A stretch of DNA of 64,000 nt from Janibacter sp. DB-40 (lineage in GTDB: Bacteria > Actinomycetota > Actinomycetes > Actinomycetales > Dermatophilaceae), in the NCBI RefSeq assembly GCF_029510815.1, contig NZ_CP120360.1:3038001-3102000 (forward strand). Direction: 5' to 3'. A model generated the notes under the pieces. The model did no database searches. It was not told the DNA's origin and was given only the letters and a program-made list of their open reading frames with translations. Shown in pieces: positions 37,166 through 58,951 of the stretch (within the stretch, counting starts at the first letter, position 1; every line of letters begins with the position of its first letter). Both the position numbers and the translations under genes were made by a program.

Positions 37166-37215
37166 GAAGGCTACGGTGAGGACAGTCACACCGGCGGACG
37201 AAGGGAGCGGTGGCC

Positions 37216-40200
37216 ATGGCCCCGAAGGATTCGACGTTCTTGGGCTGGCCGGTGCTGCGGCAGCTGGCCTCCGGAGACTTCCTCGGCCGCGGCAGCGCGG
37301 TCACCTCGCGCCGGACCCGTGAGGTCGAGGCGCGCACCACGACCGCCGACCGCGTCGTGCAGAGCGTGTGCCCCTACTGCGCCGTCGGCTGCGGGCAGCG
37401 GGTCTTCGTCAAGGACGAGAAGGTCGTGCAGATCGAGGGCGACCCGGACTCCCCGGTGAGCCGAGGGCGGCTCTGCCCCAAGGGCGCCGCCAGCGAGCAG
37501 CTCGTCAACTCGCCCACCCGCCAGACGCACGTGCTCTACCGGGCACCGGGTGCCACGGAGTGGCAGCGGATGGACCGGGACGAGGCGATCGACATGGTCG
37601 CCGACCGGTACCTCGAGGCCCGCGCCAACAAGTGGCAGGAGTTCGACGACAAGGGACGACGCCTGCGTCGGACCATGGGGATCGCCTCGCTCGGGGGAGC
37701 CACCCTCGACAACGAGGAGAACTACCTCATGAAGAAGCTGTTCACGGCTTCCGGGGCGATCCAGATCGAGAACCAGGCCCGCATTTGACACAGCGCAACG
37801 GTTCCCAGTCTGGGATCCTCGTTCGGCCGAGGCGGCGCCACGCAGTACCTGCAGGACATGGCCAACTCGGACTGCATCATCATCCAGGGCTCCAACATGG
37901 CCGAGTGCCACCCGGTGGGCTTCCAGTGGGTCTCCGAGGCCAAGGCCCGGGGGGCGCGGGTCATCCACGTCGACCCCCGGTTCACCCGCACGTCGGCGAT
38001 CGCGGACACGCACGCCGCCATCCGGGCGGGCACGGACGTCGTCCTGCTCGGTGCGCTGATCAACCACGTCCTGAGCAAGGACCTGTACTTCCACGACTAC
38101 GTCGTCAGCTACACCAACGCCGCGACCCTCGTCAGCGAGGACTTCCGCGACACCGAGGACCTCGACGGCGTCTTCTCCGGGTACGACCCGGAGACCGGCA
38201 AGTACGACATGACCTCGTGGGGCTACGAAGAGGGATCGGAGCCGCCGAGCGAGTCCGACCCCGACGACAAGGTCGGTGGACCCGACTCCGAGCACGGCGG
38301 GACGAAGGCATCGCGGGCAGCCGGTGACCAGCACGGCGGTGCGGGGCCGACGCTGGAGAACGGCTCCGTCACACGTGACGAGACCCTGCAGCACCCGCGT
38401 ACGGTCTTCCAGCTGCTCAAGCGGCACTACCAGCGCTACACGCCGGAGATGGTCGCGGACGTCTGCGGCGTCCCGGTGGAGCAGTTCCACGAGATCGCCG
38501 ACGCACTGACCACCAACTCCGGCCGTGAGCGCACGACGTGCTTCGCCTACGCGCTGGGCTGGACCCAGCACAGCCTCGGCGCGCAGTTCATCCGCACCGC
38601 CGCGATCCTCCAGCTGCTCATGGGCAACGTGGGTCGCCCGGGTGGCGGGATCATGGCCCTGCGTGGGCACGCGAGCATCCAGGGCTCGACCGACATCCCG
38701 ACCCTCTTCAACATCCTGCCGGGATACCTGCCGATGCCGATGGTCGGTCAGCACGACACCTTCGAGAACTACCTGGCCAGCATCGCCAAACCAGAGCAGA
38801 AGGGCTTCTGGACCGAGGCCGACAGCTACACGACGAGCCTGCTCAAGGCGTGGTGGGGCGACGCCGCGCAGCCGGAGAACGACTTCTGCTACGACTACCT
38901 GCCTCGGCTGACGGGCGCCCACGGGACCTACCAGTCGGTCATGGCGATGCTCGACGACGAGGTCGAGGGCTACTTCGTCGTCGGGCAGAACCCCGCCGTC
39001 GGGTCCGCCCACGGCAAGATGCAGCGGATGGCGATGACCCACCTGAAGTGGGTCGTCGTCCGCGACTTCCAGCTGCTCGAGTCGGCGACCTTCTGGAAGG
39101 ACTCCCCCGAGATCGCCACCGGTGAGCTGCGGACGGAGGACATCGACACCGAGGTCTTCTTCTTCCCCGCGGCCACGCACGTGGAGAAGTCGGGGACCTT
39201 CACCCAGACCCAGCGCATGCTCCAGTGGCACCACCAGGCGGTGCAGCCGCCGGGTGACGCGCAGAGCGAGCTGGCCTTCTTCCACGAGCTCGGGTTGCGC
39301 ATCCGCGATCGTCTCGCCGGGTCGACCGACGAGCGCGACCGTCCGCTGCTCGACCTCACCTGGGACTACCCCAGGGACGAGCACGGGGAGACCGACGCCG
39401 AGGCCGTCCTGAAGGAGATCAACGGCTACCACCTCACCGGGGAGAAGGCCGGGCAGCTGCTCGACAAGTTCGCCGACATGAGGCCCGACGGTTCCACCGC
39501 TGGTGGGTGCTGGATCTACACCGGCGTCTACGCCGGCGGGGTCAACAAGTCGGCCAACCGCGTGCCGGCACAGGAGCAGGACGAGGTCGCCAAGGAGTGG
39601 GGCTGGGCCTGGCCGATGAACCGGCGGATCCTGTACAACCGCGCCTCCGCCGACCCCGAGGGCAAGCCGTGGAGCGAGCGGAAGAAGTACATCTGGTGGG
39701 ACGAGGCGGAAGGGAAGTGGGTCGGCAAGGACGTCCCCGACTTCCCCGTCGACCGGGCACCGTCCTTCCGTCCCGGCCCGGACGACAGCGGTCCGGGAGC
39801 ACTGGCCGGTGACGACCCCTTCATCATGCAGTCCGACGGCAAGGGCTGGCTCTTCGCGCCCAAGGGCATGGTCGACGGGCCGCTCCCGACGCACTACGAG
39901 GCGCAGGAGTCACCCGTCGCCAACCCGCTCTACACCCAGCAGAGCAATCCGAGCCGTCTGGTCTACCCGCGCAAGGACAACCTGTGGAGCCCCTCCGGCA
40001 ACGCTCCCGGGGCGGAGGTCTACCCCTTCGTCTTCACCACCTACCGGTTGACCGAGCACCACACCGCCGGCGGCATGAGTCGCTGGCTGCCCTACCTGTC
40101 GGAGCTGCAGCCGGAGATGTTCTGCGAGGTCTCGCCCGAGCTGGCGGAGCAGCAGGGCCTGGTCAACGGCGAGTGGGCGACGATCATCTCCGCGCGCAGC

Positions 40201-40578
40201 GCGATCGAGGCGCGGGTGCTCGTGACCGAGCGGATGAGACCGCTGACGATCAAGGGCCGCACCGTCCACCAGATCGGTCTGCCCTACCACTGGGGCGTCG
40301 GCCGTGACGCCGTCGTCGAGGGCGACGGCGCCAACGACCTGCTCGGTGTCGTGCTCGACCCCAACGTGCAGATCCAGGAGTCGAAGGTCGGGTCCTGCGA
40401 CATCCGGCCCGGCCGCCGGCCACGCGGGGAGGACCTGCTGCGACTCGTCGCGGAGTACCAGTCACGGGCGGGCACGACCGTCGAGACGAGCAACGAGCGC
40501 GTCAACGAGGTCTCCGACGAGATCCGCGAGCGCCGTGCCGCCGCCAGGCATCAGGACCCCATGGAAGGAGACCAGTGA
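37216..40578 (+). CDS. fdhA: Formate dehydrogenase alpha subunit, selenocysteine-containing
   Basis: 1120 aa read through an in-frame TGA at 37786-37788 as selenocysteine (U191). Mo/W-bis-MGD enzyme oxidising formate to CO2. Residues 52-87: [4Fe-4S] ligands C52, C55, C59, C87 (CPYCAVGCG ... RGRLCPKG). Residues 185-200: ENQARI-U-HSATVPSLGSSFG, where other FDHs have RV-U/C-HG or RI-C-HS, so TGA falls exactly on the metal ligand. The rest follows the FdnG pattern (QGSNMAECHPVGFQW, GNVGRPGGGI, VVGQNPAVGSAHGKM, HWGVGRDAVVEGDGANDL) with an acidic/Gly insert near 340-380. ATG 37216 has AAGGGAG 8 bases upstream. No Tat signal is visible. Followed directly by fdhB. Standard callers will split this gene at 37788. 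Confidence 0.96.
37786..37818 (+). promoter_or_regulatory. UGA codon and bacterial SECIS hairpin of fdhA
   Basis: Counting the U of UGA as 1, GG 15-16, U17, an apical loop with G23-U24 and closing CC 32-33 form GGUUCCCA-GUC-UGGGAUCC. In E. coli fdhF the bulged U17 and loop G23/U24 needed for SelB binding occupy the same positions (from memory of that element). Here U17 faces U31 as a mismatch. Directs SelB to insert Sec. Confidence 0.92.
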
Positions 40579-41690
40579 TGGGTTACCTCGAGCGCCAGCT
40601 CGCCGGGCGGACCAACCCGGCGGAGGACGCCGGGTGGCAGGACGCGCCCAGTCGCAAGGGCTTCTTCACCGACACCTCGATCTGCATCGGCTGCAAGGCC
40701 TGCGAGGTGGCGTGCAAGGAGTGGAACGGCATCCCGCTCGACGGTCTGACCATCAGCGGCAACTCCTACGACAACACCGGTGATCTCGGCGCGAGCACGT
40801 GGCGCCACGTCGCCTTCGTGGAGCAGAGCCAGGACCGCATCGAGGCCGCCCGCGAGTCCGGCAAGCGTCTCGTCGACCTGGGGATGCCGAGCATCGGGAC
40901 ACCCGAGCCTGCGCCCGGGCCCTCCGGCGCGCAGCCGGCGGGGTACGGCACCCTGCCGGCACCGATCGAGGGGCACGGCCCCGCGCTGTCGGACATGCTC
41001 GACGAGAAGGCGAACGTCGAGGCCGGCGGCACCGGGGACTACGGGCTCACCGTGGACGGTGTCCCGATCGTCGGCCCGGTGCCGGAGTTCCGTTGGCTGA
41101 TGTCCTCCGACGTGTGCAAGCACTGCACCCACGCGGGCTGCCTCGACGTCTGCCCCACCGGCTCGCTCTTCCGCTCCGAGCACGGCACCGTCGTCGTCCA
41201 GGACGACATCTGCAACGGCTGCGGCTACTGCGTCGGGGCGTGCCCCTTCGGCGTCATCGAGCGACGCACCGACGACAGCGTCAGCGTGCGGGCGGACGAC
41301 CACGTGCCCAACGTCGGCGTCGCCCAGAAGTGCACGCTCTGCTACGACCGCCTCGCGCACGACCAGACACCCGCCTGCGCGCAGACCTGTCCGACGACCT
41401 CGATCAAGTTCGGCACGCACGAGGACATGGTCGCCTCGGCGAAGGAGCGGGTGGTCCAGCTGCACGAGCAGGGCTTCACCGAGGCCCGACTGTACGGGGC
41501 CAACGAGGACGACGGCGTCGGCGGGACCGGCTCGGTCTTCCTCCTGCTCGACGAGCCGGAGGTCTACGGCCTGCCACCGGACCCGGTCGTCCCGACCGCG
41601 AAGCTGCCCGAGATGTTCCGCACCGCGGGAGTCGCCGGCCTCGGCCTCCTGGGCGCGGCCGCTCTCGCCTTCATCGGGAGCAAGTCGTGA
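40578..41690 (+). CDS. Formate dehydrogenase beta subunit (4Fe-4S ferredoxin type)
   Basis: 370 aa electron-transfer subunit. Four [4Fe-4S] clusters: SICIGCKACEVACKEW (about 34-49), VCKHCTHAGCLDVCPTG (about 179-195), ICNGCGYCVGACPFGVI (about 213-229) and KCTLCYDRLAHDQTPAC plus AQTCPTTSIKFG (about 255-280). A C-terminal hydrophobic span (about 348-366, GVAGLGLLGAAALAFIG) anchors it to the membrane. Takes electrons from FdhA. ATG 40578 shares its A with the fdhA TGA and has AAGGAG 7 bases upstream. Confidence 0.96.
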   Translation: MGYLERQLAGRTNPAEDAGWQDAPSRKGFFTDTSICIGCKACEVACKEWNGIPLDGLTISGNSYDNTGDLGASTWRHVAFVEQSQDRIEAARESGKRLVDLGMPSIGTPEPAPGPSGAQPAGYGTLPAPIEGHGPALSDMLDEKANVEAGGTGDYGLTVDGVPIVGPVPEFRWLMSSDVCKHCTHAGCLDVCPTGSLFRSEHGTVVVQDDICNGCGYCVGACPFGVIERRTDDSVSVRADDHVPNVGVAQKCTLCYDRLAHDQTPACAQTCPTTSIKFGTHEDMVASAKERVVQLHEQGFTEARLYGANEDDGVGGTGSVFLLLDEPEVYGLPPDPVVPTAKLPEMFRTAGVAGLGLLGAAALAFIGSKS

Positions 41691-42823
41691 CCACCTCCCC
41701 CTTCGACAGCTATCGCCCCCCGGAGACCGGACGACGGCGCCGGCGCGCCTCGGGCGTGCGTGGCGCCGTCAGCGGTGCCACTGAGGTGGCGAAGGGGGCC
41801 CGCCGCAGCTGGATGAATCGCGAGGGCGGGGGCCAGCGCGAGGCGCCGGCCGTGCCCGACGCCGAGTTCTCCAGCTACTACGGGCAGCCGGTCGTCAAGC
41901 CGGTGCCGTGGGACCACCGGATCTCCGCCTACCTCTTCGTCGGTGGCATCGCCGGCACGTCGGGCATCATCGCCGCGGGCGCGGCGGCCACCGGCAACGA
42001 GCTGCTGCGCCGCAACTCGCGGCTGACCTCGATGGCCACCGTCGGCCTGAGTGGGGTGGCGCTCGTCGCCGACCTCGGCCGGCCGGAGCGCTTCCTCAAC
42101 ATGCTGCGCACGGTCAAGCTGACCTCCCCGATGTCGGTCGGCACGTGGATCCTGTCCGGCTACTCGGCCTTCGCCGGGGTGACCACCGCGACCGAGGTGC
42201 TCGGCATGCTGCCGGCGCGCGGCCCCCTTCGCTCCCTCGCGCGGGTCCTCGCCCCGGTGACCGCCCCCGCCACGATCGGCCAGGCCCTGCTGGGCGCGCC
42301 CCTGGCGGCCTACACCTCGGTGCTGCTGTCCGACACCGCGCACCCGGTGTGGCACGAGAGCCGGCGGCAGCTGCCCTTCGTCTTCGTCGGCTCCGCCGCC
42401 CTCGCCTCCGGCGGTGTGCAGATGCTGCTCGCCCCGGCCGGCCACGCCGGCCCCGCCCGCAGGCTCGCGCTGATCGGCGTGGGCACCGAGCTGGTGGCGA
42501 TGCACCAGCTCGAGGAGCACCTCGCGCAGCTGAACATCGACGAGCCGCTCACCGCCGGCACGGGCGCTGGCAAGCTGCGGCTGGCCAGGGCCCTGACCAT
42601 CGCCGGTGGCGTGGGGACCCTGCTGGCCGGACGCAGCCGCCTCGCGGCACTCGCCGCGGGTGCCGCGCTGACCACCGCGTCCGCCCTGACCCGGGCCGGC
42701 ATCGTCGAGGCGGGCATCGAGTCCGCCAAGGACCCCCAGTACACGGTCCGGCTGCAGAAGGCCCGGCTGGAGGAGCGCCGCAGCCAGGGCGTCGTCCACG
42801 ACAGCGCCGTCACGGTCAGGTAG
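41687..42823 (+). CDS. Formate dehydrogenase membrane subunit, NrfD/PsrC family
   Basis: 378 aa. A ~85-residue basic and polar cytosolic leader is followed by 8-9 membrane spans of the NrfD family, containing VALVADLGRPERFLNMLRT (about 126-144), the characteristic short motif after span 2, and SPMSVGTWILSGYSAFAG. Unlike FdnI it has no haem-b pattern. Passes electrons from FdhB to the quinone pool. GTG start at 41687 overlaps the fdhB stop as GTGA, with GGGAG upstream. Confidence 0.92.
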   Translation: MTTSPFDSYRPPETGRRRRRASGVRGAVSGATEVAKGARRSWMNREGGGQREAPAVPDAEFSSYYGQPVVKPVPWDHRISAYLFVGGIAGTSGIIAAGAAATGNELLRRNSRLTSMATVGLSGVALVADLGRPERFLNMLRTVKLTSPMSVGTWILSGYSAFAGVTTATEVLGMLPARGPLRSLARVLAPVTAPATIGQALLGAPLAAYTSVLLSDTAHPVWHESRRQLPFVFVGSAALASGGVQMLLAPAGHAGPARRLALIGVGTELVAMHQLEEHLAQLNIDEPLTAGTGAGKLRLARALTIAGGVGTLLAGRSRLAALAAGAALTTASALTRAGIVEAGIESAKDPQYTVRLQKARLEERRSQGVVHDSAVTVR

Positions 42824-42866
42824 GTCCGCACACCCAGGTCGCAGCACCCGAGCAGTGGGAGGTCCC

Positions 42867-44171
42867 ATGAGTACGGTCGGAACCACGCACGAGTCCGAGT
42901 CCACGTCCAGCAGAGCCGGCAACCGCTGGATCATCCTCGCGGGTGGTGTCCTCGTCCAGCTGACGATCGGCGCCGTGTACGCGTGGAGCACAATGGGCCG
43001 GGCCCTGAACGATGAGCAGTCGGCCTTCGACCTGACGAAGGTGCAGACGGCCATCCCCTTCGAGGTGGCCATCGGGATGCTCTTCCTCGGGACCTTCCTC
43101 GGCGGTCGGATCCAGGACCGCAAGGGCCCGCGCGTCGTCGCACTCTCCGGTGTGGTCCTCTACTCGATCGGCATCATCCTCGCCGGCTTCGCGCGTGACA
43201 CCTCCGACTTGTGGCTGCTCATCCTCGGTTACGGCGTGCTCGGCGGCTTCGGCCTCGGCCTCGCCTACATCGTGCCGATCGCGATGCTGCAGAAGTGGTT
43301 CCCGGACAAGCGTGGCCTGATCACCGGCGTCGCCGTCGGCGGGTTCGGCTTCGGCGCCGTGATCACCTCGCCGATGATGAACCGGCTCATCTCCGGCATG
43401 GAGGGCTACCAGGCCGAGCCGACCAAGGCCTTCCTCTGGCTCGGTGGCGCGTACCTGGTTTTCGGGCTCCTCGGCGCCTCCGTCTTCAAGAACCCGCCGG
43501 CGGACTACGTCGCGCCCGGTGCGGCCACGGCCGACGGTCAGGACGACCCGAAGAAGAAGGAGGAGCCGGCCAAGAAGGCCGCTCGCGACTTCACCCAGCA
43601 GGAGGCCCTGAGCACGCCGCAGTGGTACCTGCTCACCCTCATCCTCACGGTCTCGGTCACCGCGGGCATCTCGCTGATCTCGGTCGCTGCCGATGCCGCG
43701 ACGAACATCGCCGGCTTCAGCGTCGCGGCGGCCGCGACCCTCGTCGGCATCATGGGTCTGTTCAACGGCGCCGGTCGGATCGCCTGGGCCGCGACCTCGG
43801 ACAAGATCGGCCGCAGGCCGGCCTTCGTCGGCATTCTGGGCCTGCAGGGCCTGGCGCTGCTCGCGCTCCCGCACGTCGGCAACGTGGTGCTCTTCTACAT
43901 CCTGGCCGCCATCATCTACACCTGCTACGGAGGCGCCTTCGGCACCCTCCCGGCCACGGCCGGCGACTTCTTCGGTCTGAAGCACTCCGGCGGCATCTAC
44001 GGGCTGATGCTCATCGGGTGGTCCATCGGTGGCATCGTCGGCCCGCTGCTCATCTCCTGGCTGATCGGGTCCGAAGGGCGCTACACGCTCGGCTTCACGG
44101 TGATGGGCATCATCGCGCTGGTCGGCGTGATCATCCCGATCATCGCGCGCCCGCCGAAGGCGCAGCGCTGA
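42867..44171 (+). CDS. OFA-family MFS transporter (oxalate/formate antiporter type)
   Basis: 434 aa, 12 membrane spans with a charged central loop (DDPKKKEEPAKKAARDF, about 220-236). N-terminal GGVLVQLTIGAVYAWS (about 25-40) and GGFGLGLAYIVPIAMLQKWFP (shown in part: AMLQKWFPDKRGLITG) are hallmarks of the oxalate:formate antiporter subfamily. Formate import for the adjacent FDH, or oxalate/formate exchange, is likely; neither is proven. ATG 42867 with GGGAGG four bases upstream. 43 bp after the membrane subunit, so it ends the fdh operon. No fdhD is in the window. Confidence 0.92.
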   Translation: MSTVGTTHESESTSSRAGNRWIILAGGVLVQLTIGAVYAWSTMGRALNDEQSAFDLTKVQTAIPFEVAIGMLFLGTFLGGRIQDRKGPRVVALSGVVLYSIGIILAGFARDTSDLWLLILGYGVLGGFGLGLAYIVPIAMLQKWFPDKRGLITGVAVGGFGFGAVITSPMMNRLISGMEGYQAEPTKAFLWLGGAYLVFGLLGASVFKNPPADYVAPGAATADGQDDPKKKEEPAKKAARDFTQQEALSTPQWYLLTLILTVSVTAGISLISVAADAATNIAGFSVAAAATLVGIMGLFNGAGRIAWAATSDKIGRRPAFVGILGLQGLALLALPHVGNVVLFYILAAIIYTCYGGAFGTLPATAGDFFGLKHSGGIYGLMLIGWSIGGIVGPLLISWLIGSEGRYTLGFTVMGIIALVGVIIPIIARPPKAQR

Positions 44172-44259: not shown

Positions 44260-45412
44260 TCAGACGAAGGCGCTGATGCCGGTCTCGGCGCGGCCGATGA
44301 GCAGCTTTTGGATCTGGGAGGTGCCTTCGTAGAGCGTCATCACCCGGGCGTCGCGCATGTACTTCGCCACCGGGTACTCGTCGACGTAGCCGTAGCCGCC
44401 GAAGGCCTGGATGGCGAGGTTGGCTGCCTTGACGGCCGCTTCCGAGGCGAAGTACTTCGCCTTGGACGCCTCGGTGCCGAAGGGCTCGCCGCGCTCGATC
44501 AGGTCGGCCGCCCGCCAGGTCAGGAGGCGTGCCGCATCGGCGTCGATGGAGATCTCGGCGATCATGTCCTGGATCATCTGGAAGGACGCGAGCGGACGTC
44601 CGAACTGGGTGCGTTCCTGCGAGTAGGACACGACGGCCTCCAGGCAGCCCTGGATGATCCCGGTGCAGCCGGCACCGACGGATACCCGACCCTTGTCGAG
44701 TGACTTCATGGCGAAGGCGAAGCCGTCACCCTCCTCGCCGACCATCGCCGAGGCCGGGACGCGGACCTTGTCGAAGGCCAGCTCGGCGGTGGCCTGCCCC
44801 CGCAGCCCGAGCTTGCCCTTGATCTCGGTGCTGGTGAAGCCGGGGGCGTCGGTCGGCACGAGGAAGGCCGAGACCCCCTTCGGCCCGGGTCCACCGGTGC
44901 GGGCGAAGACCATGCACACGTCCGCCCACGTGCCGTTGGTGATGAAGATCTTGCCCCCGGTGATCAGCCAGTCGTCGCCATCACGGACGGCGCGCGTCTT
45001 CAGGTTGGCGGCGTCGGAGCCGGTGTCGGGCTCGGTGAGGCCGAAGCAGCCGAGCTTGGTGCCGTCGGCGATCCCGGGCAGCCACTCCTGCTTCTGCTCC
45101 TCGCTGCCGTGGTCGAGCAGGATCTTGCCGAAAAGACCCATCGAGACCGAGACGATCCCCCGGACCGAGGAGTCGGCACGACCGAGCTCCTCCATTCCCA
45201 AGCAGTACGTGATGTAGTCGCCGCCGAGGCCGCCGTACTCCTCGGGGATCGTCAGACCGAAGAAGCCGATCTCGCCCATCTTGGGGATGATCGCCGTGTC
45301 CACGGACTCGCGGCGGTCCCACTCGGTCCGGTAGGGGACCACTTCCTTGTCGAGGAACTCACGGGCCAGCCTCTGGAAAGCTGATCTGGTCCTCGTTCAG
45401 TGCCAGGTCCAT
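44260..45412 (-). pseudogene. Acyl-CoA dehydrogenase, N-terminus interrupted by a one-base insertion
   Basis: About 383 aa if corrected. ATG 45412 gives MDLALNEDQIS and then hits a stop; the adjoining frame continues QRLAREFLDKEVVPYRTEW, exactly the family N-terminus. Removing one A from AAA at 45377-45379 (TTT in the coding strand) gives EDQISFQRLAREF. The body is complete: CFGLTEPDTGSDAAN (FAD/substrate, about 125-139), ITNGTWADVCMVFAR, YSQERTQFGRPLASFQ (about 265-280), catalytic Glu in MTLYEGTSQIQKLLIGR (about 365-380). Dehydrogenates an acyl-CoA at C2-C3. Last gene of the eight-gene acyl-CoA operon; the start overlaps the preceding stop (TGATG). Confidence 0.8.
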
Positions 45413-46287
45413 CAGTGGTTCCCTTCGTTCGTGTAGTCGTACCAGCCCTTGCCGGTCTTGCGGCCGAGCTCCCCGCGCTCGACCTTGTCGACGACGCTCC
45501 GGGAAGGGGCGTCGGCGGGATGGCCGGTCTCCTCGAACCGGGCCTGCTTCGTGTGGTACCCGATGTCGATCCCGGTGAGGTCCATCAGCTCGAACGGTCC
45601 CATCGGGTATCCGAGAGCGGTGCGCGCAGCAGTGTCGATCGACTCGACGCTCGCGTAGCCACCCTCGAGGAGCCGGATCGCCTCATCACGCACCGCGTTG
45701 AGCAGCCGGTTGGCGATGAATCCGGGGATCTCCTTGTCGACGACTACGGCCGTCTTGCCGAGTCGCTCGACCAGTGCCACCGTCATGGCGGCCGTCTCGT
45801 CGGAGGTCTGCGGGCCCCTCACCACCTCGACACACTTCATGACTAGGGCTGGGTTGAAGAAGTGCATGCCCACGACCCGGTCGGGCCGGGTGGTCGCGTC
45901 GGCGATCTTCGAGGGGACGAAGCTCGATGAGTTCGTGGCGAGGATCGCATGCTCCGGGGTGAGCCGGTCGAGATCGGCGAAGAGCGAGCGCTTGACGTCG
46001 ATCTTCTCGACGGCCGCCTCGATGGCGATGTCGACCCCCTTCGCCGCCTCTGCGAGGTCAGTACCGAAGCGCATCCGGGTGAAGGAGGCGTCGCGCTCCT
46101 CGGCGGTGATCCGGCCCTTGTCGACGGAGCGCTGCATCCGCTGGGTGAGCTCCTCCCTCGCGCGCTCGAGCGAGGCTTCGGCGACGTCCTGCACCGCGAC
46201 CTCTAGCCCGGCGAGGGAGCAGACCATCGCAATCTGCGCGCCCATGGCGCCGGAGCCGACGACGAGGACCTTCGTGATGTCAGCCAT
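45412..46287 (-). CDS. 3-hydroxyacyl-CoA dehydrogenase (3-hydroxybutyryl-CoA dehydrogenase type)
   Basis: 291 aa. NAD-binding VLVVGSGAMGAQIAMVCSLA (about 7-26), catalytic His in VVGMHFFNPALVMKCVEV (about 139-156), Asn in PGFIANRLLNAVRDEA (about 187-202) and C-terminal GPFELMDLTGIDIGY. Oxidises a 3-hydroxyacyl-CoA to the 3-ketoacyl-CoA in beta-oxidation. One base after the crotonase stop; downstream gene starts within its stop codon. Stand-alone (not fused to a hydratase). Confidence 0.96.
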   Translation of the reverse strand: MADITKVLVVGSGAMGAQIAMVCSLAGLEVAVQDVAEASLERAREELTQRMQRSVDKGRITAEERDASFTRMRFGTDLAEAAKGVDIAIEAAVEKIDVKRSLFADLDRLTPEHAILATNSSSFVPSKIADATTRPDRVVGMHFFNPALVMKCVEVVRGPQTSDETAAMTVALVERLGKTAVVVDKEIPGFIANRLLNAVRDEAIRLLEGGYASVESIDTAARTALGYPMGPFELMDLTGIDIGYHTKQARFEETGHPADAPSRSVVDKVERGELGRKTGKGWYDYTNEGNH

Positions 46288-46288
46288 C

Positions 46289-47065
46289 TCAGCTCCCCGT
46301 GAACTCGGCAGGGCGCTTGGCGAGGAATGCTTCGGTGCCCTCCCGCTTGTCGTCGGAGGTGTAGAGCAGCGCCTGCGCGAGACGCTCGACGACCAGGCCG
46401 GTGTGCTGGTCCGCGTCCATCCCGGAGCGGACGACGAGCTTGGCCAGGCGCACCGCGAGGGGGCCCTTGGCCAGGACCTGGTCGGCGACCTCGCGAGCCG
46501 CGCCGAGCAACTCGTCCGGAGCCACGACGGTGGTCACCAGGCCGAAGGAGAGCGCCTCGTCCGCCGGGACCATCCGGCCGGTGAGGATCATCTCGATGGC
46601 CCGGCCGGTGCCGACGAGCCGGGCCAGCCGCTGGGTGCCGCCGGCACCGGGCAGCACGGACAGGTTCGTCTCCGGCAACCCGAAGCGTGCGGTCTCGGAT
46701 GCGACGCGGATGTCACAGGCCATGGCCAGCTCGCACCCACCGCCGAGGGCGTAGCCGTTGACGGCCGCGATCGTCGGCTTCTCGAAGGCCTCGACCTCGT
46801 CGTAGAGCTTCTGCATCTGCGAGGCGAGACCCGTGTGCAGGGTGTATCCGGCGAGCTGGGCGATGTCGGCCCCCGCGACGAAGGCCTTCTCCCCGGCGCC
46901 GGTGAAGACGACCGCGCCGATGGAGTCGTCGTCACGGGCCGCGGTCAGGAACGAGCGCAGGTCGGCCTGCACCTGCGCGCTGACCGCGTTGCGCACGTCG
47001 GGTCGGTTGATCGTCACGGTGGCGACCCGGTCGACGACCTCGACCAGCAGGGTCTCGTAGGTCAT
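46289..47065 (-). CDS. Enoyl-CoA hydratase (crotonase), both catalytic Glu present
   Basis: 258 aa from ATG 47065 (MTYETLLVEVVDRVATVTIN). Oxyanion-hole residues in AFVAGADIAQLAG (about 66-78), first catalytic Glu region in GYALGGGCELAMACD (about 105-119) and second in LPETNLSVLPGAGGTQRLAR (about 130-149). Both acids are kept, so a genuine hydratase is expected, adding water to a 2-enoyl-CoA. In this operon it could act on cyclohexenecarboxyl-CoA or on linear enoyl-CoA. Three bases from the thiolase stop. Confidence 0.94.
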   Translation of the reverse strand: MTYETLLVEVVDRVATVTINRPDVRNAVSAQVQADLRSFLTAARDDDSIGAVVFTGAGEKAFVAGADIAQLAGYTLHTGLASQMQKLYDEVEAFEKPTIAAVNGYALGGGCELAMACDIRVASETARFGLPETNLSVLPGAGGTQRLARLVGTGRAIEMILTGRMVPADEALSFGLVTTVVAPDELLGAAREVADQVLAKGPLAVRLAKLVVRSGMDADQHTGLVVERLAQALLYTSDDKREGTEAFLAKRPAEFTGS

Positions 47066-47067
47066 GG

Positions 47068-48267
47068 TCAGACTCCTTCCAGGAGGACGGAGATGCCCTG
47101 GCCGACGCCGACGCACATGGTGGCGAGGGCGTGACGGGCACCGCGATCTGAGAGCTCGAGGGCTGCGGTGAGGGCGATTCGGGCGCCGCTGGCTCCCAGC
47201 GGGTGGCCGAGTGCGATCGCGCCGCCGTTGGGGTTGACGTGCTCGGCGTCGTCGGGCAAGCCGAGGCCGCGCAGGACCGCGAGCGACTGCGCGGCGAAGG
47301 CCTCGTTGAGCTCGATGACGTCGAGGTCGCCGACCTGTAGGTTGTGGCGCTCGAGGAGGCGGTTGGTGGCCGGGACCGGACCGATCCCCATCGTGCGGGG
47401 CGGGACGCCGGCAGCGGCACCCGCGGTGACACGGGCCAGCGGGGTCAGCCCGTGCTTCTCCACAGCGGCCTCGGAGGCGATGAGCACGGCGGCGGCCCCG
47501 TCGTTGACGCCAGAGGCGTTGCCGGCGGTGACGCTGCCACCACTGAAGATCGGGCGCAGCCCGGACAGCTTGTCCATTGACGTGTCGCGTGGGTGCTCGT
47601 CGGCGTCGACGACGACCGGCTCACCCCGTCGCTGCGGCACCTCCACGGGGGTGATCTCCCGGGCCAGCCGGCCGCTCGCGATCGCCGCGGCCGCCCGCTC
47701 CTGGGACCGCAGCGCGAAGGCGTCCTGGTCGGCACGCGAGATCCCAAGCTCGAGGGCCAGGTTCTCGGCCGTCTGCGGCATGCCGTCGGTGCCGTACTGC
47801 TCCTCCATCTGAGGGTTGACGAAGCGCCAGCCGATGGTGGTGTCGTGGACCTCTGCGTTGCGCGACCAGGCCGCGCTCGCCTTGGGCATGACGAAGGGGG
47901 CCCGCGTCATGGACTCGACGCCTCCGGCGATGACGAGGTCGGCGTCGCCGGCGCGGACGCTGCGCGCCGCACTCATCACTGCATCGAGGCTGGAGCCGCA
48001 CAACCGGTTGATCGTGCTGCCGGGCACCTCGACGGGGAGCCCGGATAGCAGCACAGCCATGCGAGCGACGTTGCGGTTGTCCTCGCCCGCCTGGTTGGCA
48101 CAGCCCAGCAGCACGTCGTCGATCGCCGCCCAGTCCACCTGGGGCAGGCTGTCAGCCAGGCTGCGGATGGTGTGCGCGGCGAGGTCGTCCGGCCGGACGG
48201 GCGCCAGAGCCCCTCCGTACCGCCCGAAGGGGGTTCGGACGCCCGACACGAGATAGGCGGTGGTCAC
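47068..48267 (-). CDS. Thiolase (acetyl-CoA acyltransferase)
   Basis: 399 aa. Nucleophile Cys in INRLCGSSLDAVMSAARSV (about 86-104), NEAFAAQSLAVLRGLG with the Asn/Glu box (about 315-330), catalytic His in NGGAIALGHPLGASGARIA (about 348-366) and second Cys in TMCVGVGQGISVLLE (about 382-396). Cleaves a 3-ketoacyl-CoA with CoA to acetyl-CoA and a shortened acyl-CoA; the pattern is close to 3-ketoadipyl/pimeloyl-type thiolases. GTG start at 48267 overlaps the ligase stop (GTGA). Confidence 0.95.
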   Translation of the reverse strand: MTTAYLVSGVRTPFGRYGGALAPVRPDDLAAHTIRSLADSLPQVDWAAIDDVLLGCANQAGEDNRNVARMAVLLSGLPVEVPGSTINRLCGSSLDAVMSAARSVRAGDADLVIAGGVESMTRAPFVMPKASAAWSRNAEVHDTTIGWRFVNPQMEEQYGTDGMPQTAENLALELGISRADQDAFALRSQERAAAAIASGRLAREITPVEVPQRRGEPVVVDADEHPRDTSMDKLSGLRPIFSGGSVTAGNASGVNDGAAAVLIASEAAVEKHGLTPLARVTAGAAAGVPPRTMGIGPVPATNRLLERHNLQVGDLDVIELNEAFAAQSLAVLRGLGLPDDAEHVNPNGGAIALGHPLGASGARIALTAALELSDRGARHALATMCVGVGQGISVLLEGV

Positions 48268-49901
48268 GTCTGCTTCCCGACCTGATCACGGAGGTGGAAC
48301 TTCTGGATCTTGCCGCTCGGCGTGGTGGGGAAGGCATCCAGGACACGGAGTGACTCCGGCCAGTACTGCTTCGCCACCCCTTTGGCTGCGAGGAAGTCCG
48401 TCATCTCCTCGAAGGTGAACTCGCCGCCGGCATCGGGCTTGAGCATGACGCACGCGCACGCACGCTCTTGCAGCCGAGGGTCGGGTACGCCGATGACGGC
48501 CACCGACTGGAGCTTTGGGTTCTCGTAGAGCACGTTCTCGACGTAGGCGACCGGTATGTTCTCACCGCCGCGGATGATCACGTCCTTGGTGCGTCCTGAG
48601 AGGCGCACGTACCCCTCGTCGTCGATCTTGGCGAGGTCTCCGGTGTCGAACCACCCGTCCTCGAAGAGGTCGCGCGTCATCTCGATGCGCTTGGCGTACC
48701 CGATGAAGAGGAAGGGCCCACGGACCTGCAGGCGTCCCTCCTCGCCGGGCATGACCCGAGCGCCGTCGGCATCGACGGTGCGGATCTCCATCCCCGGCCA
48801 CGGATACCCGTCGGTCTCGATGATCTTCTCCTCCGGGTCACCGGGGATCCCCAGGGTGACCAACCCGTTCTCCGTCTGGCCCCAACCGCCGAGCACGACC
48901 GTGTTCGGCAGCTTCTCCTTCGCCTCGCGCACGATGGCGCGGGGGATAGGGGCGCCCATGCAGCAGAACCGCGTCAACGACGACAGGTCGTGATCAGCGA
49001 GGTTGGGCGCGCCCAGCATGTCGTGGAGGAAGGGGGTGGCCCCCGAGGTGTAGGAGATGCCGTGCTTCTCGACGAGTCGGGCGAACTCCTCGTTGTTCCA
49101 CACGTCCTGCAAGACGCAGGTCGCGCCGTTCTGGACGTTCAGCCGGGCACCGTAGAGGAAGCCGGTCAGGTGGGCCAGCGTGGAGGCCATGTGGAAGACC
49201 GTCTCGCTGGTGATCCCGAGCCGGTCCGGCAGGGCGGCGTTCGCGGCCACCACCGTGTTGTGGCTGTGCATGACCCCTTTCGGCTCCCCGGTCGTCCCGG
49301 AGGTGAAGATCAGCAGCGTCACGTCGTTGGGGTCGGGGCGAAGGGCGGCCAGCTCGGCCCGGTCACGCCGCTCCCCCCACGGGGTGGCGACGAAGTCCTC
49401 CCACGACGACGTTCCCTGACCGGGCTTCCCGTCGACGACGAGCACGGACTCCAGCGCGGGCCAGTCGCCCCGTAGCTGGTCGATCATGTCGACATGGTCG
49501 AAGCCGCGGAAGGTCGAGGGGACGACGATCATCTTGGACTCGGCCAGGCCGACCATGAAGTCGACCTCACGTGCGCGGTAGATCGGGATGAGTGGGTTGC
49601 TGATCGCGCCGACCCGGGTCGCGGCGTAGTGCAGGACGACCCACTCGATCCAGTTAGGCAGCTGGAAGGAGATGACGTCACCGGGCGAGATGCCGAGCTC
49701 CAACAACCCGAGGGCGACATGGTCGACTTCGGTTTGTAGCTCGCCGTAGGTGATCTGACGACGGGGGTCGATGAAGGCGACCTTGTCGGGTGTGTGCTCG
49801 GCCCACTCGTCGAGGTAGTCGGTGATGGTGCGGTCGATCCAGTAGCCAGCGCTCGTGTACTGCTCCACGAGCTGCGGGGTGAGGATGGTCTCGAACGTCA
49901 T
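48264..49901 (-). CDS. Acyl-CoA ligase, cyclohexanecarboxylate-CoA ligase (AliA) type
   Basis: 545 aa AMP-forming ligase. The start MTFETILTPQLVEQY ... GYWIDRTITDYLDEW is the N-terminal style of AliA-type ligases. P-loop LLIFTSGTTGEPKGVMHSHN (about 195-214), GGWGQTENGLVTLG (about 340), WFDTGDLAKIDDEGY (about 415), SGRTKDVIIRGGENI hinge, and catalytic Lys in TTPSGKIQKFHLRDQ (about 525-539). Activates the entry acid of the operon to its CoA ester. The alicyclic substrate is inferred from resemblance and from the BadH-like neighbour. GGAGG 9 bases before ATG 49901. Confidence 0.92.
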   Translation of the reverse strand: MTFETILTPQLVEQYTSAGYWIDRTITDYLDEWAEHTPDKVAFIDPRRQITYGELQTEVDHVALGLLELGISPGDVISFQLPNWIEWVVLHYAATRVGAISNPLIPIYRAREVDFMVGLAESKMIVVPSTFRGFDHVDMIDQLRGDWPALESVLVVDGKPGQGTSSWEDFVATPWGERRDRAELAALRPDPNDVTLLIFTSGTTGEPKGVMHSHNTVVAANAALPDRLGITSETVFHMASTLAHLTGFLYGARLNVQNGATCVLQDVWNNEEFARLVEKHGISYTSGATPFLHDMLGAPNLADHDLSSLTRFCCMGAPIPRAIVREAKEKLPNTVVLGGWGQTENGLVTLGIPGDPEEKIIETDGYPWPGMEIRTVDADGARVMPGEEGRLQVRGPFLFIGYAKRIEMTRDLFEDGWFDTGDLAKIDDEGYVRLSGRTKDVIIRGGENIPVAYVENVLYENPKLQSVAVIGVPDPRLQERACACVMLKPDAGGEFTFEEMTDFLAAKGVAKQYWPESLRVLDAFPTTPSGKIQKFHLRDQVGKQT

Positions 49902-49917
49902 TGGTCGTCGCCTCCGC

Positions 49918-50664: not shown

Positions 50665-50694
50665 GATGGGCTCCTTCTGTCGTGGTTGGTCGGG

Positions 50695-51843: not shown

Positions 51844-51848
51844 GGCGA

Positions 51849-52646
51849 TCAGCGCGCCGAGGGGAAGTTCGGCTCGCGCTTCTCGCGCAGGGCGGTGTAG
51901 CCCTCGACGACGTCGGGGCTCATGAAGGTGAGCATCTCGTAGGCAGCTGACTGGTCGAAGATCGGTGCAGCCTGGCGTACCCAGCTGTTGAGCGTGCGCT
52001 TGGTCAGGCGGATCGCCTGCTGGGCGCCGGTCGCCATGACGTTGGCGACGCGCAGCGCCTCGTCGAGGACCTCCTCGCGGGGCAGGGCCTTGCTGACGAG
52101 CCCAATCCGTTCGGCCTCCTCGCCGGTGAGCATCTCGCCGGTCATCAGGTAGTAGCGGGACTTCGCCATGCTGGTCAGCAGCGGCCAGATGATCGCGGCG
52201 TGGTCGCCGGCGGCCACGCCGAGCTTGACGTGCCCGTCTCCGAGCTTCGCGTCCTTGGCGATGATCGAGATGTCGGACAGGAGTCCGACGACCGTCCCGG
52301 CACCGACCGCGACGCCGTTGATCGCGGAGACGATCGGCTTTTCACACTCGATCATGCTGTAGACGATGTCGCTCATCTCCTTGAGCATGTGTGACACCCG
52401 CTCGTGGTCGCCGGCCAGCCGCTCCACCATCTCCAGGTCGCCCCCGGCGCTGAAGGCCTTGCCGGCCCCGGTGACCACTGCCACACGGATGCTCGGATCT
52501 TCGGAGACGTCGCGGAAGACGCGGGCCAACTCGCCGTGCATCTGCTCGTCGGTGGCGTTGTACTTCTCCGGCCGGTTCAGCGTGATCTTGAAGACGCCGT
52601 TGTCCAGACGGTCGAAGGCAAGCTGGTCGTAGGTGCTGAAGTCCAT
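51849..52646 (-). CDS. Crotonase-superfamily protein lacking the usual second Glu
   Basis: 265 aa from ATG 52646 ([19 protein letters not shown]), with AGGAG five bases upstream. Oxyanion hole [16 protein letters not shown] (about 64-79) and [20 protein letters not shown] (about 108-127). In hydratases the next loop carries Glu and PGAGGTQ; here it reads [16 protein letters not shown] (about 140-155), so simple hydration is doubtful and hydrolysis or isomerisation is possible. First gene of the operon. It is the obvious candidate for the ring-opening step if the pathway is the alicyclic one, but it is not BadI-like in sequence. Confidence 0.9.
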
Positions 52647-52659
52647 GGTTCTCCTAATC

Positions 52660-53464: not shown

Positions 53465-53857
53465 CTACTCCCGGACGTCGGCCGGGCCGTCCGTCAGGGG
53501 CAGCCCGGCCGCGGCCCAGGCCTCGACGCCCCCGACGACGTCGGTCGCGTCGACGCCGAGCGCGCGCAGGGACGCGGCCGCCAGCGACGAGCTGTAGCCC
53601 TGCCGGCACAGGACGACGACCTGCACGCCGGCGATCGCCTCGGGGATGCGGTGGGGGCTCGTCGGGTCCAGCCGCCACTCGAGGACCGTGCGGTCGATGA
53701 CGACGGCGCCGTGGATCTCCCCTTGGCGGCTGCGCTGCACGATGGTGCGGGTGTCGACGAGGAGGGCGCCCCCCTTCGCAACGGTCCACGCCTGCTCGGG
53801 GGTCATCCGGGCGACGCCGGACCGGACCTCCTGCAGGAGCCGGTCGACCTCGCTCAC
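53465..53857 (-). CDS. Rhodanese-domain protein
   Basis: 130 aa single rhodanese domain. Active-site loop VVLCRQGYSSSLAAASLRAL (Cys ~86), N-terminal GGALLVDTRTIVQRSRQGEI and VVGGVEAWAAAGLPL at the end. Transfers sulfane sulfur to cyanide or thiols. GTG start at 53857 overlaps the selD stop (GTGA), so it is translationally coupled to selenophosphate synthetase; rhodanese-bound selenium can feed SelD in vitro, which makes a selenium-delivery role attractive but unproven. Confidence 0.9.
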   Translation of the reverse strand: MSEVDRLLQEVRSGVARMTPEQAWTVAKGGALLVDTRTIVQRSRQGEIHGAVVIDRTVLEWRLDPTSPHRIPEAIAGVQVVVLCRQGYSSSLAAASLRALGVDATDVVGGVEAWAAAGLPLTDGPADVRE

Positions 53858-54855
53858 GTCACCTGGACGAGCGCGCCGTCCGGGAGCGACCCGGCGGCGA
53901 CCGTCTCACCCACGACCGGCGCTCCCGGGACCTCGCCGACGACGAGCAGCCCACCGGAGGTCTGGGCGTCCGCGAGCAGGATCAGCTCGTCCTCGCTGAT
54001 GCCGTCGGCGGACAGGTGCGGGCGCACCCAGTCGAGGTTGCGCTTCGAACCCCCGGGCACGTGTCCGGCCGCGAGCGCCTCCCGGGCTCCGGCGACGTAG
54101 GGCACGGCAGTCGCGTCGATCCGGGCGGCCACGCCGGAGGCCCGCGCCATCTTGTAGAGGTGCCCGAGCAGGCCGAAGCCGGTGACGTCCGTCGCCGCGC
54201 GCACCCCGGCGGCGAGGGCGGCGCGGGCGGCGTCCCGGTTGAGGGCGGCCATGGAGGCGATGGCCTCCTCGCTGCGCTCCCCCGTCGCCTTGTGCCGGTT
54301 GTTGAGCACGCCGACGCCCAAGGGTTTGGTCAGGCTGATCGGCAGCCCCGCCTCGGCGGCGTCGTTGCGCATCATCCGGTCGGGGTCGGCGGTGCCGGTG
54401 ACCGCCATCCCGTAGATCGGCTCGGGGGCGTCGATGCTGTGCCCGCCGAGGACGGGGCAGCCTGCCTCGGTGGCCACGTCGAGCCCGCCACGCAGCACCT
54501 CGCGCAGGTGGTCGGTCGAGATCAGCTCGCGCGGCCAGGCGACGAGGTTGATCGCCATGATCGGCTCACCGCCCATCGCATAGATGTCGGAGACGGCGTT
54601 GGCCGCGGCGATGCGACCCCAGTCGTAGGGGTCGTCGACGACGGGCGTGAAGAAGTCCGACGTGGAGAGCACCGCCTGGCCCCCCCGGATGCGCACAGCG
54701 CCCGCGTCGTCACCATCGTCCAACCCGACGACGACATCCGCGCCGGGCGGGCTCGCGCCGTACAGCCCGGCGACGATCTCCTCGAGCTCACCGGCCGGGA
54801 TCTTGCAGGCGCAGCCACCGCCGCGCGCGTACTGGGTCAGGCGAACGGGGTCCAT
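53854..54855 (-). CDS. selD: Selenide, water dikinase (selenophosphate synthetase)
   Basis: 333 aa. Makes monoselenophosphate from selenide and ATP for tRNA-Sec charging. N-terminal GGGCACKIPAGELEEI holds the catalytic Cys and Lys (about 14-18); this is a Cys form, not Sec. ATP/Mg motifs STSDFFTPVVDDPYDWGRIA (about 64-83) and AVSDIYAMGGEPIMAINLV (about 87-105), TDVTGFGLLGHLYKMA and ADAQTSGGLLV complete the family. ATG 54855. Divergent from the HhH-GPD gene and tRNA-Sec/selA/selB. Confidence 0.97.
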   Translation of the reverse strand: MDPVRLTQYARGGGCACKIPAGELEEIVAGLYGASPPGADVVVGLDDGDDAGAVRIRGGQAVLSTSDFFTPVVDDPYDWGRIAAANAVSDIYAMGGEPIMAINLVAWPRELISTDHLREVLRGGLDVATEAGCPVLGGHSIDAPEPIYGMAVTGTADPDRMMRNDAAEAGLPISLTKPLGVGVLNNRHKATGERSEEAIASMAALNRDAARAALAAGVRAATDVTGFGLLGHLYKMARASGVAARIDATAVPYVAGAREALAAGHVPGGSKRNLDWVRPHLSADGISEDELILLADAQTSGGLLVVGEVPGAPVVGETVAAGSLPDGALVQVT

Positions 54856-55569: not shown

Positions 55570-55665
55570 GGAGGCGTCTGGGTTCCTGGTGGTCCCCCCG
55601 GTCTTCAACACCGGTGAGGCCGAGCATCTCGGTCTGGCGGGTTCGATTCCCGTCCGTCTCCGCCA
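55570..55665 (+). tRNA. selC: Selenocysteine tRNA, anticodon UCA
   Basis: 96 nt including encoded CCA. Acceptor strands GGAGGCG (55570-55576) and CGTCTCC pair over 7 bp, discriminator G, then CCA. Anticodon stem CCGGT / ACCGG with loop CTTCAAC gives anticodon TCA, which reads UGA. The extra-long variable arm GGCCGAG-CAT-CTCGGTC and T-loop TTCGATT are typical of tRNA-Sec. Lies 106 bp upstream of selA. Confidence 0.97.
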
Positions 55666-55771: not shown

Positions 55772-57130
55772 GTGACCACGATCGACCCTCGTCGGGCGAT
55801 CCCCCGCACGGACGCGCTCCTGGCCGAGCCCCCCTTCGTCGCCGCCGCCACGCGACTGGGCCGCTCCACGGTGCGCGCCGTCGTCAACCGCGCCCAGGAC
55901 CGCGCCCGCCGCGGTGAGATCGCCCCGGGGGACGTGGCGGCCACCGCCCTGGCCGGCCTCCCGACCCGGGCCTCGTCCCTCACTCCGCTGCTCAACGCGA
56001 CCGGCGTGGTCATCCACACCAACATCGGGCGGGCGCCCCTGTCCCCCAGTGCCGTCGAGGCGATCGTCGACGCCGCCGGCTACGTGGACGTCGAGATGGA
56101 CCTGGCCTCGGGCGCGCGCAGCCGGCGTGGTGCCGGGGCACTCGCCGCCCTGCGCGAGGCCGTGCCCGAGGTCGGTGACGCGCTCGTCGTCAACAACGGC
56201 GCCGCCGCGCTCGTCCTCGCGACGACCGCCCTCGCCGCGGGCAAGGAGGTCATCGTCTCCCGCGGGGAGATGATCGAGATCGGCGACGGCTTCCGCCTGC
56301 CGGACCTCATCGCCTCGACCGGCGCCCGGCTGCGCGAGGTGGGCACGACCAACCGCACCCACCAGCGCGACTACCTCGACGCGATCGGCCCGGAGACCGG
56401 ATGCATCCTCAAGGCGCACCCGAGCAACTTCCGGGTCGACGGCTTCACCACGGCGGTCGGGTACGAGGAGCTGCGTGACGCGGTGCGCCCGGACGGCTCG
56501 CCCGTCCCGCTCGTCGCCGACATCGGCTCCGGCCTGCTGGCCCCCGACCCGCTCCTGCCCGACGAGCCCGACGCGAGCACCGCGCTACGACAGGGCGCGA
56601 CGATCGTCACCGCGAGCGGCGACAAGCTGCTCGGCGGCCCCCAGGCGGGCCTGGTCCTCGGTGACGCCGACGTCGTCGCGTCCCTGCGCCGCCACCCGCT
56701 CGCCCGGGCGCTGCGGATCGACAAGCTGACCATCGCCGCGCTCGAGGCGACGGTGCGCGGGCCGGCCCCACCGGTGGCGGCCGCACTCCACGCGCGCGCC
56801 GACGCGCTGCTCCCCCGGGTCGAGCGCCTGGCCGCCGCGCTCGGCCGCGGCGTCGTGCCCGTCGAGGGACGGGTCGGTGGCGGCGGCGCCCCCGGGGTGC
56901 CGCTGCCCGGCTGGGCGGTCGAGATCCCCGTCGCCGCGGTCGAGCGACTGCGCACCCCGCCTCCCGGCACCCCGGCCGTGCTCGCCCGGGTCGACGAGGG
57001 CCGCGGCCTGATCGACCTGCGCTGCATCCCCGCCGACCACGACGGCGACGTGGAGGCGGCGGTGCGCATCGCCCTTCGCGATGGGTCCGACGCGGTGACC
57101 GGGGCCGACGAGCGGCCCGGTCTGCCATGA
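55772..57130 (+). CDS. selA: L-seryl-tRNA(Sec) selenium transferase
   Basis: 452 aa PLP enzyme converting seryl-tRNA-Sec to selenocysteyl-tRNA-Sec with selenophosphate. LLNATGVVIHTNIGRAPLSP (about 72-91), VNNGAAALVLATTALAAGKE (about 140-159), LKAHPSNFRVDGFT and the PLP Lys in TASGDKLLGGPQAGLV (about 285). GTG start 55772 (VTTIDPRRAIPRTDALL) has GGGAG 6 bases upstream. Followed by selB after 10 bp. Confidence 0.97.
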   Translation: MTTIDPRRAIPRTDALLAEPPFVAAATRLGRSTVRAVVNRAQDRARRGEIAPGDVAATALAGLPTRASSLTPLLNATGVVIHTNIGRAPLSPSAVEAIVDAAGYVDVEMDLASGARSRRGAGALAALREAVPEVGDALVVNNGAAALVLATTALAAGKEVIVSRGEMIEIGDGFRLPDLIASTGARLREVGTTNRTHQRDYLDAIGPETGCILKAHPSNFRVDGFTTAVGYEELRDAVRPDGSPVPLVADIGSGLLAPDPLLPDEPDASTALRQGATIVTASGDKLLGGPQAGLVLGDADVVASLRRHPLARALRIDKLTIAALEATVRGPAPPVAAALHARADALLPRVERLAAALGRGVVPVEGRVGGGGAPGVPLPGWAVEIPVAAVERLRTPPPGTPAVLARVDEGRGLIDLRCIPADHDGDVEAAVRIALRDGSDAVTGADERPGLP

Positions 57131-57140
57131 GACCGGTGTC

Positions 57141-58951
57141 ATGAGGCGGGTACTGGCCACGGCCGGGCACGTCGACCACGGCAAGTCCACCCTCGTGCGG
57201 GCCCTGACCGGACGCGACCCGGACCGGTTGGCGCAGGAGCGTCGGCGCGGCCTGACGATCGAGCTCGGCTACGCGTGGACGACGCTGCCGAGCGGGGCCG
57301 AGGTCGCCTTCGTCGACGTGCCGGGCCATCAACGCTTCGTCGGCACGATGCTCTCGGGGCTCGGGCCCGCGCCGACGGTGGTCTTCGTCGTCGCCGCGGA
57401 CCAGGGGTGGCAGGCCCAGAGCAGCGAGCACCTCGCCGCGGTCCACGCGCTCGGGATCACCGACGGGCTGCTCGTGCTCACCCGGTGCGACCTCGCCGAC
57501 GCCGAGCAGCGGGCGGAGGTGCGCTCCCAGGCGACCAGGCGACTCGCGGCGGCCGGCCTCGACGTGCCGGTCTGCGAGGTCTCCGCCGTGACCGGCGAGG
57601 GCCTGGAGTCGGTGCGTGAGGGGTTGGACGCGCTCGTCGACCGCATGCCGACGCCCGACCCCGACGCGCCGGTGCGGCTGTGGGGCGACCGGTCCTTCTC
57701 CATCTCCGGGGCGGGGACGGTCATCACCGGCACCCTCGGCGCGGGCACCCTGCGCAGCGGCGACCGGCTGACCCTCCTCGACCACGGCACCGCCCGCGAG
57801 GTGACCGTACGCGGTCTGCACAGCCAGGACTCCGCCCGCGAGCAGGTCGGTCCGGTCTCCCGGGTCGCGGTCAACCTCCGCGGGGTGGAGGCCGACACCG
57901 TGGGCCGATCGCTCGTCCTGCTCACCCCGGACGCCTTCGAGCCGGCCGATGTCGTCGACGTCGCCCTGACCCCCGTCGACGGGGACGAAGGGGTCGCCCC
58001 GGCCGGCCGGACCGCTCACCCCCGCAGGTGGCGACGCTGCACGTGGGGTCGGCGGACGCCAGCGTGCACGTGCGTCCGCTCGGTGCCGGGTTCGCTCGGC
58101 TGACCTCGGGGGTGGTCCTGCCGTGGCGGGTCGCCGACCGGGCGATCCTGCGCGACCCGGGCAGCCGCCGGTTGTGGTCCGCGCGCGTCGTGGACGTCGA
58201 CCCGCTCCCGCTGTCCCGGCGGGGCGCGGCGGGCCGGCGCGCCGAGGCGCTGTCCACCGGGGACCTGTCCGCCGTGCGGCTGCGGTCGCGGGGCGCCGAC
58301 CGGGAGGAGGTGCTGGGCCGGCTGGGCCTGACCGCGCCGGCCGGCGCCGTCCGAGTGGGCGACTGGCTCGTGGACGGGACCACCCTGGCCGACTGGCAGG
58401 CGCGCCTCGTCGCGGCCGTCCGCGAGCACCACCGACGCGAGCCGTTGAGCGCCGGGATGCCGGTGGCCGAGGCGGCCCACCACCTCGGGCTGGCGGCGCA
58501 CCTGCCGCCCTCGCTGGGGCAGGCGGCCGTGCGGGCGCTCATCGGGCCGGCCGGCCTGGCCCTGACGGACGGGACCGTCCACGACCCGGCCGCGGGAGGA
58601 CTGGGCGCCGCGGAGGCGAGCATCGCGGCCGTGGAGGAGAAGCTGCGGGTGACCCCCTTCGTCGCCCCGGAGCGCGGTGAGCTGGCCGACCTCGGTCTCG
58701 GGGCCACCGAGCTCGCCGCCGCGGCCCGGCTCGGCCGGCTGCTGCGCCTGCCCGACGACGTCGTCCTGCTGCCCGACGCACCGGCACGGGCCATGCGGGT
58801 GCTCGCCGGGCTGGAGCAGCCCTTCACCCTCAGCGCAGCGAGGCAGGCCCTCGGCACCACCCGGCGGGCCGCGGTGCCGTTGTTGGAGCACCTCGACGGG
58901 CGCGGCTGGACCCGGCGGGTCGACGGAAGCCTGCGCGAGGTCGTGCGCTAG
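57141..58951 (+). pseudogene. selB: Selenocysteine-specific elongation factor SelB, interrupted by a one-base shift
   Basis: About 603 aa if corrected. Residues 1-~170: GTPase with TAGHVDHGKSTLVRALTG (G1), FVDVPGHQRFVGTML (G3) and LTRCDLADAEQ (G4). Then EF-Tu-like domains 2-3 to ~370 and four winged helices (to 603) that bind SECIS. The 57141 frame runs to VVDVALTPVDGDEGVAPAG and then loses homology before a TGA near 58101; the adjoining frame resumes at PQVATLHVGSADASVHVRPL and runs to 58951. Restoring one base, either in GGGG 57989-57992 or CCCCC 58019-58023, rejoins them. As read, SECIS-binding domains would be lost and fdhA could not be decoded, so a sequence error is likelier than a real mutation. 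Confidence 0.85.

Follow-up and report, generated by a model that had tools for sequence, protein, structure and literature searches.

The window, by which we mean the whole stretch of 64,000 nucleotides of Janibacter sp. DB-40 analysed here, holds the genes of a predicted three-subunit formate dehydrogenase (FDH) and, at 53854-58951, a sel group (Table 1). The ATG of the beta subunit, whose open reading frame (ORF) is listed from 40575, overlaps the stop of fdhA. The interval between the fdh and sel groups contains genes of fatty-acid catabolism (44260-52673): two acyl-CoA dehydrogenases, a 3-hydroxyacyl-CoA dehydrogenase, two enoyl-CoA hydratases, a thiolase, an AMP-binding ligase and an SDR. 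In the window, selD, tRNA-Sec and selA lie 13-17 kb downstream of fdhA. The close relatives named in this work are Janibacter species. In the close relative G057, selD begins about 4 kb after fdhA, versus about 13 kb in the window, a distance about 9 kb longer. Beyond the sel group, a SAM-IV riboswitch (59590-59703, minus strand, 113.5 bits) is found directly upstream, on the minus strand, of an OsmC-like gene (ORF 59074-59880), the OsmC-like domain being in the C-terminal part of that ORF.

Table 1. Predicted features of the fdh and sel groups and of the genes near them, with the evidence for each.
Feature	Coordinates	Strand	Evidence and remarks
fdhA, formate dehydrogenase alpha subunit	37216..40578	+	1120 residues, predicted Sec at 191; NCBIfam NF041513 and TGA read as Sec
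UGA codon for selenocysteine (predicted)	37786..37788	+	structure alignment; TGA at this codon in relatives
SECIS hairpin	37800..37818	+	positions 15-33 counted from the U of UGA; core 37801-37817; conservation and covariation
FDH beta subunit, 4Fe-4S protein	40578..41690	+	PF13247; TIGR01582 172.8 bits, below the 334.7 cut-off
NrfD-type membrane subunit (gamma)	41687..42823	+	PF03916 66.5 bits
MFS carrier	42855-44171		
TetR-type regulator	52692-53453		
selD, selenophosphate synthase	53854..54855	-	TIGR00476 385.9 bits, cut-off 125
selC, tRNA-Sec, anticodon UCA	55570..55665	+	ARAGORN; RF01852 67.6 bits, gathering 47
selA, selenocysteine synthase	55772..57130	+	TIGR00474 383.4 bits, cut-off 267.9; PF03841; start 55772 inferred, ORF listed from 55727
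selB first piece, GTPase and domain 2	57141..58103	+	TIGR00475 227.8 bits; PF00009
selB second piece, other frame, C-terminal half with winged helices	57989..58951	+	PF09107, PF09106

The frame of fdhA contains one internal stop, the TGA of residue 191, in the context ENQARI-U-HSATV, and then continues unchanged. The first-pass annotation had proposed just this: a frame that stops at the Sec/Cys ligand position of FDHs and resumes without a shift, so that automatic calling would leave two fragments, the second starting at 37858. Mechanical ORF calling indeed yields 37210..37788 and 37858..40578. When Cys is written for Sec, the complete protein matches the profile NF041513 (formate_DH_Act) with 1942.9 bits, the cut-off being 1400, over positions 3-1067 of 1067, and TIGR01553 with 966.4 bits, which exceeds the cut-off of 814.2; the domains PF04879, PF00384 and PF01568, that is, the molybdopterin, Fe4S4 and dinucleotide-binding domains, are all above their cut-offs. 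An alignment with FDHs of solved structure, one of the checks that had been suggested, places residue 191 on the Sec/Cys ligand: it faces X in 1h0h and 1kqf, which we take to be Sec, and C in 9qm0. The genome is a single contig of 3,351,260 bases, and this is its single FDH with a TGA. It also carries a second FDH-like gene without TGA (G000:C1:2241815-2243899), which scores 501.3 bits against TIGR01591, under the cut-off of 666.25.

A hairpin had been claimed just after the TGA, and one exists, with U17 at 37802 and G23/U24 at 37808/37809. Single-sequence folding was dropped as evidence for it, the energies being no lower than those of shuffles: the stretch 37786-37825 folds no better than its dinucleotide shuffles (z = -0.46), three other stretches give z = +0.19, +0.18 and +1.24, and 234 of the 3342 21-mers of fdhA have a fold as good as or better than that of positions 13-33. 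What sets the hairpin apart from chance is the comparison with relatives, not its folding energy. A covariance model of the element gives 65 bits at the fdhA site and at most 18.1 bits at the other matches in the same genome listed up to an E-value of 5, with 150 of 2954 first-look candidates scored.

The N-terminal part of the FDH was searched in 186 genomes of the family, and 111 of them have this FDH with a Sec site that was read: the codon is TGA in 106 and TGC in 5. A separate motif scan for the Sec site gave 205 loci, window included, many of which repeat a genome: 200 with TGA and 5 with TGC. One further locus, L167, was missed by the scan owing to an N; its codon is TGA, followed by that N. 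The 200 TGA loci reduce to 111 distinct downstream sequences of 45 bases. In all 111 sequences, pairs 16-32, 18-30, 19-29, 20-28, 21-27 and 22-26 are kept, and the outer pair 15-33 is kept in 101. Pair 18-30 is kept with changing letters (UA in 70 sequences, UG in 10, CG in 30, GC in 1), a level of pairing that 0 of 10000 shuffles attain at this place. Positions U17, G23 and U24 are invariant. U24, a wobble base, is T in 111 of the 111 sequences; in the coding part after the hairpin, at the named loci, AGT makes up 11% of AGY codons and GGT 15% of GGN codons, and fdhA uses GTT for only one of its 76 Val codons, the one in the hairpin.

Covariation was tested on 45 of the 111 distinct sequences, picked for diversity. 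They contain 15 double-change cells, where the shuffle mean is 4.3 and none of 500 shuffles reaches 15; related sequences may exceed shuffles without any structure, and this count is therefore not to be read as a probability. When the hairpin is shifted by 1-3 columns, 16-70% of cells pair, as against 97.8% in register. Double changes occur at 2 of the hairpin pairs, a value that 170 of the 500 shuffles reach; three core pairs and pair 16-32 never vary and are thus uninformative on covariation. The gene shows both an in-frame UGA aligned with the Sec/Cys of its homologues and a conserved, covarying hairpin with G-U in the apical loop.

Under translation table 11 a TGA is a stop, and the split produced by mechanical calling is what an ordinary nonsense mutation, or a sequencing error, in a dying gene would produce. 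The comparison with relatives already contradicts this reading, whose probability we regard as practically negligible: TGA occupies this codon in 106 of the 111 genomes read, together with the conserved and covarying hairpin, and the dN/dS of fdhA against G057 is 0.08 on the 5' side of the codon and 0.14 on its 3' side. A copy that is perhaps decaying is found elsewhere in the family: the N-terminal FDH match at G099:C73:13804-14358 has two TAG stops, and its Sec site reads TGA.

The five TGC homologues make the family a natural test of SECIS function. All five of these genes lack pair 19-29 and four of them pair 18-30, while pairs 16-32, 20-28 and 22-26 keep letters that are able to pair; the folding energy of positions 14-34 averages -3.9 kcal/mol, versus -12.1 kcal/mol for the TGA genes. 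The winged-helix domain of SelB (PF09107) was detected in 101 of the 106 TGA genomes, a count that takes in our own genome with its split selB, in none of the 5 TGC genomes, and in 16 of the remaining 75. The five TGA genomes in which PF09107 was not found (G043, G060, G068, G070 and G127) are each in about 100 contigs or more, and in G060 the selB match runs into the end of a contig. Since five homologues carry TGC, Cys would be tolerated at residue 191, and one might conjecture that the UGA is translated as Cys or Trp, without any Sec machinery. However, the window carries a tRNA-Sec gene, selA and selD, and SelB is found in 101 of the 106 TGA genomes and in none of the 5 TGC genomes: we consider this conjecture extremely improbable.

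We hold with very high confidence that fdhA is built as a selenocysteine gene: its product would be the FDH catalytic subunit with Sec191 as metal ligand, its UGA being read by means of SelB and the downstream hairpin. The TGA almost certainly signals selenocysteine insertion. This confidence bears on the design of the gene; decoding in the present-day strain is a separate question, and depends on selB. In the proposed mechanism, SelD would supply selenophosphate, SelA would convert Ser-tRNA-Sec to Sec-tRNA-Sec, and SelB would bring Sec-tRNA-Sec to the ribosome and bind the hairpin just 3' of the UGA. The codon would be read as Sec rather than as a stop because SelB both delivers the charged tRNA and binds the hairpin. 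The FdhA protein would belong to a membrane-anchored enzyme with an FeS beta subunit and an NrfD-type gamma subunit; the insertion of Sec, the metal, the anchoring in the membrane and the direction of the reaction are inferred. Mechanical calling divides this actinobacterial Sec-FDH gene into two fragments; the correct gene model is the one with the predicted Sec at residue 191.

The first-pass annotation had listed selA, selB, selD and tRNA-Sec within the same window. All are there, but selB is not intact as assembled here: it is spread over two frames, and the match of its first piece to TIGR00475, at positions 3-271 of a profile of 581, stays below the cut-off of 242.25 bits. As to the trait of Sec decoding, tRNA-Sec, selA and selD are present, and selB has its sole copy split between frames in this assembly. 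Identity to the whole SelB of G057 is 93% for the first piece and 91% for the second, which corresponds to residues 284-603; the pieces meet at 57989-58022, and PF09107 and PF09106 are found in ORF 57680..58951. A search with the whole G057 SelB gave no second match to the winged-helix half elsewhere in the genome. Both halves share one frame in 13 of the 13 loci of the same genus that hold both, and one further same-genus locus, L078, is cut off by the end of its contig. Compared with G057, the linker lacks a single base, and the stretch abounds in runs of G and C, where consensus errors commonly arise. The dN/dS of the halves against G057 is 0.15 and 0.22, both well below 1, which leaves a recent break or none at all. 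The split (57141-58951) stems either from a fault of the assembly or from a recent lesion private to this strain.

Assuming that the lesion is real, fdhA would be a true Sec gene in a strain that has recently lost Sec decoding, with FdhA ending at residue 190. As far as the gene itself is concerned, this agrees with our explanation, and it would catch the loss of Sec decoding in progress. The sole selB of the genome is in two frames, its linker lacks one base relative to G057, and selB alone, of the splits between the window and G057, is flanked by recognised SelB domains on either side, so that a generally poor assembly is not demonstrated. On the other hand, the halves form one frame in every same-genus locus that holds both, the low dN/dS makes any break recent, the break falls in the G- and C-rich linker, and fdhA, the hairpin, tRNA-Sec, selA and selD look undamaged. 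On balance we find the loss of decoding rather unlikely, and SelB presumably works in this strain despite its split frame.

Frame changes are not confined to selB: 15 ORFs of G057, selB among them, have window matches that change frame. We rejected these 15 as a sign of poor assembly. Nine of the other 14 were given to Pfam; six are split N-terminal to a recognised domain and three have no match, so that none of the nine is split inside a recognised domain. These nine ORFs neither show nor exclude a high rate of assembly errors.

There is also the possibility that the split is real and Sec is decoded all the same, with the GTPase and winged-helix parts made as two polypeptides, or through ribosomal frameshifting. 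In eukaryotes, the GTPase and SECIS-binding functions are in a two-protein arrangement, of which a two-piece selB that decodes Sec would be a bacterial counterpart. Programmed frameshifting is unlikely since the split is common to none of the 13 same-genus loci, and we judge such continued decoding from two pieces or by frameshifting very improbable.

The 16 SelB-bearing genomes among the 75 that lack this Sec-FDH at a read site form a separate observation (G016, G107, G108, G116, G117, G120, G124, G125, G126, G132, G133, G137, G140, G144, G157 and G159). Six stretches (L256-L260 and L262), taken from 6 of these genomes, all have a tRNA-Sec gene close to selB. No TGA was found within their listed FDH-like and SelD matches. 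This is at odds with a published statement that FdhA or SelD is present in every selenoproteome (PMC1794560). Searches for a selenoprotein in SelB-bearing genomes without this FDH, based on GC3 and, among the matches listed, on conserved TGA codons, gave noise only. Genomes G139 and G142 have two SelB winged-helix matches each, and the second place in G142 (L261) is near a tRNA-Sec gene.

We finally compare the locus with known systems. The hairpin occupies the same position after the UGA as the SECIS elements of fdhF and fdnG of E. coli K-12, and like them has U17, and G23-U24 in the apical loop: the agreement by position that had been claimed for fdhF is borne out, and it extends to fdnG. 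The predicted apex (AGUCU, with a triloop) is nearer that of fdnG than that of fdhF. The Janibacter hairpin differs in having one extra nucleotide (position 31) opposite U17, hence a 1x1 internal loop where the E. coli elements have a bulge, and it has a CCC/GGG core. At the level of the enzyme, the likeness to E. coli FdnGHI (FDH-N) includes the TIGR01553 score above cut-off, the alignment with 1kqf at the Sec position, and the apex, U17, G23 and U24 of the fdnG SECIS; unlike FdnGHI, the Janibacter enzyme has an NrfD-like third subunit, and its beta subunit is under the FDH-N beta cut-off (Table 1). FdhA matches the family NF041513 over its full length, and nothing was seen that would set the Janibacter member apart in it.

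Our searches found no literature joining "Janibacter" and "selenocysteine"; for "Janibacter" and "formate dehydrogenase", the one match is a tea-cultivation study. FDH alpha is described as the most widespread bacterial selenoprotein (PMC5029168, PMC1794560), and a table of a 2005 survey includes Mycobacterium avium paratuberculosis with an FDH hit (PMC1242214). Among the closest known systems is FDH1 of Actinomycetospora chiangmaiensis DSM 45062, a membrane-bound Sec-FDH with subunits of 1078 (alpha), 362 (beta) and 366 (gamma) amino acids, Sec in alpha, selA and selB within the FDH1 cluster, and a removal of formic acid that depends on selenite (PMC7176365). Compared with that description, the Janibacter enzyme has subunits of similar size and its predicted Sec likewise in alpha; its selD, tRNA-Sec, selA and selB, by contrast, are 13-18 kb off, beyond the fatty-acid genes, and its selB is split in the assembly. 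A Sec-FDH with sel genes nearby is thus already known in Actinobacteria, and the Janibacter locus adds a member, with one oddity: SelB, which is needed to read the UGA signal, looks broken in the assembly.
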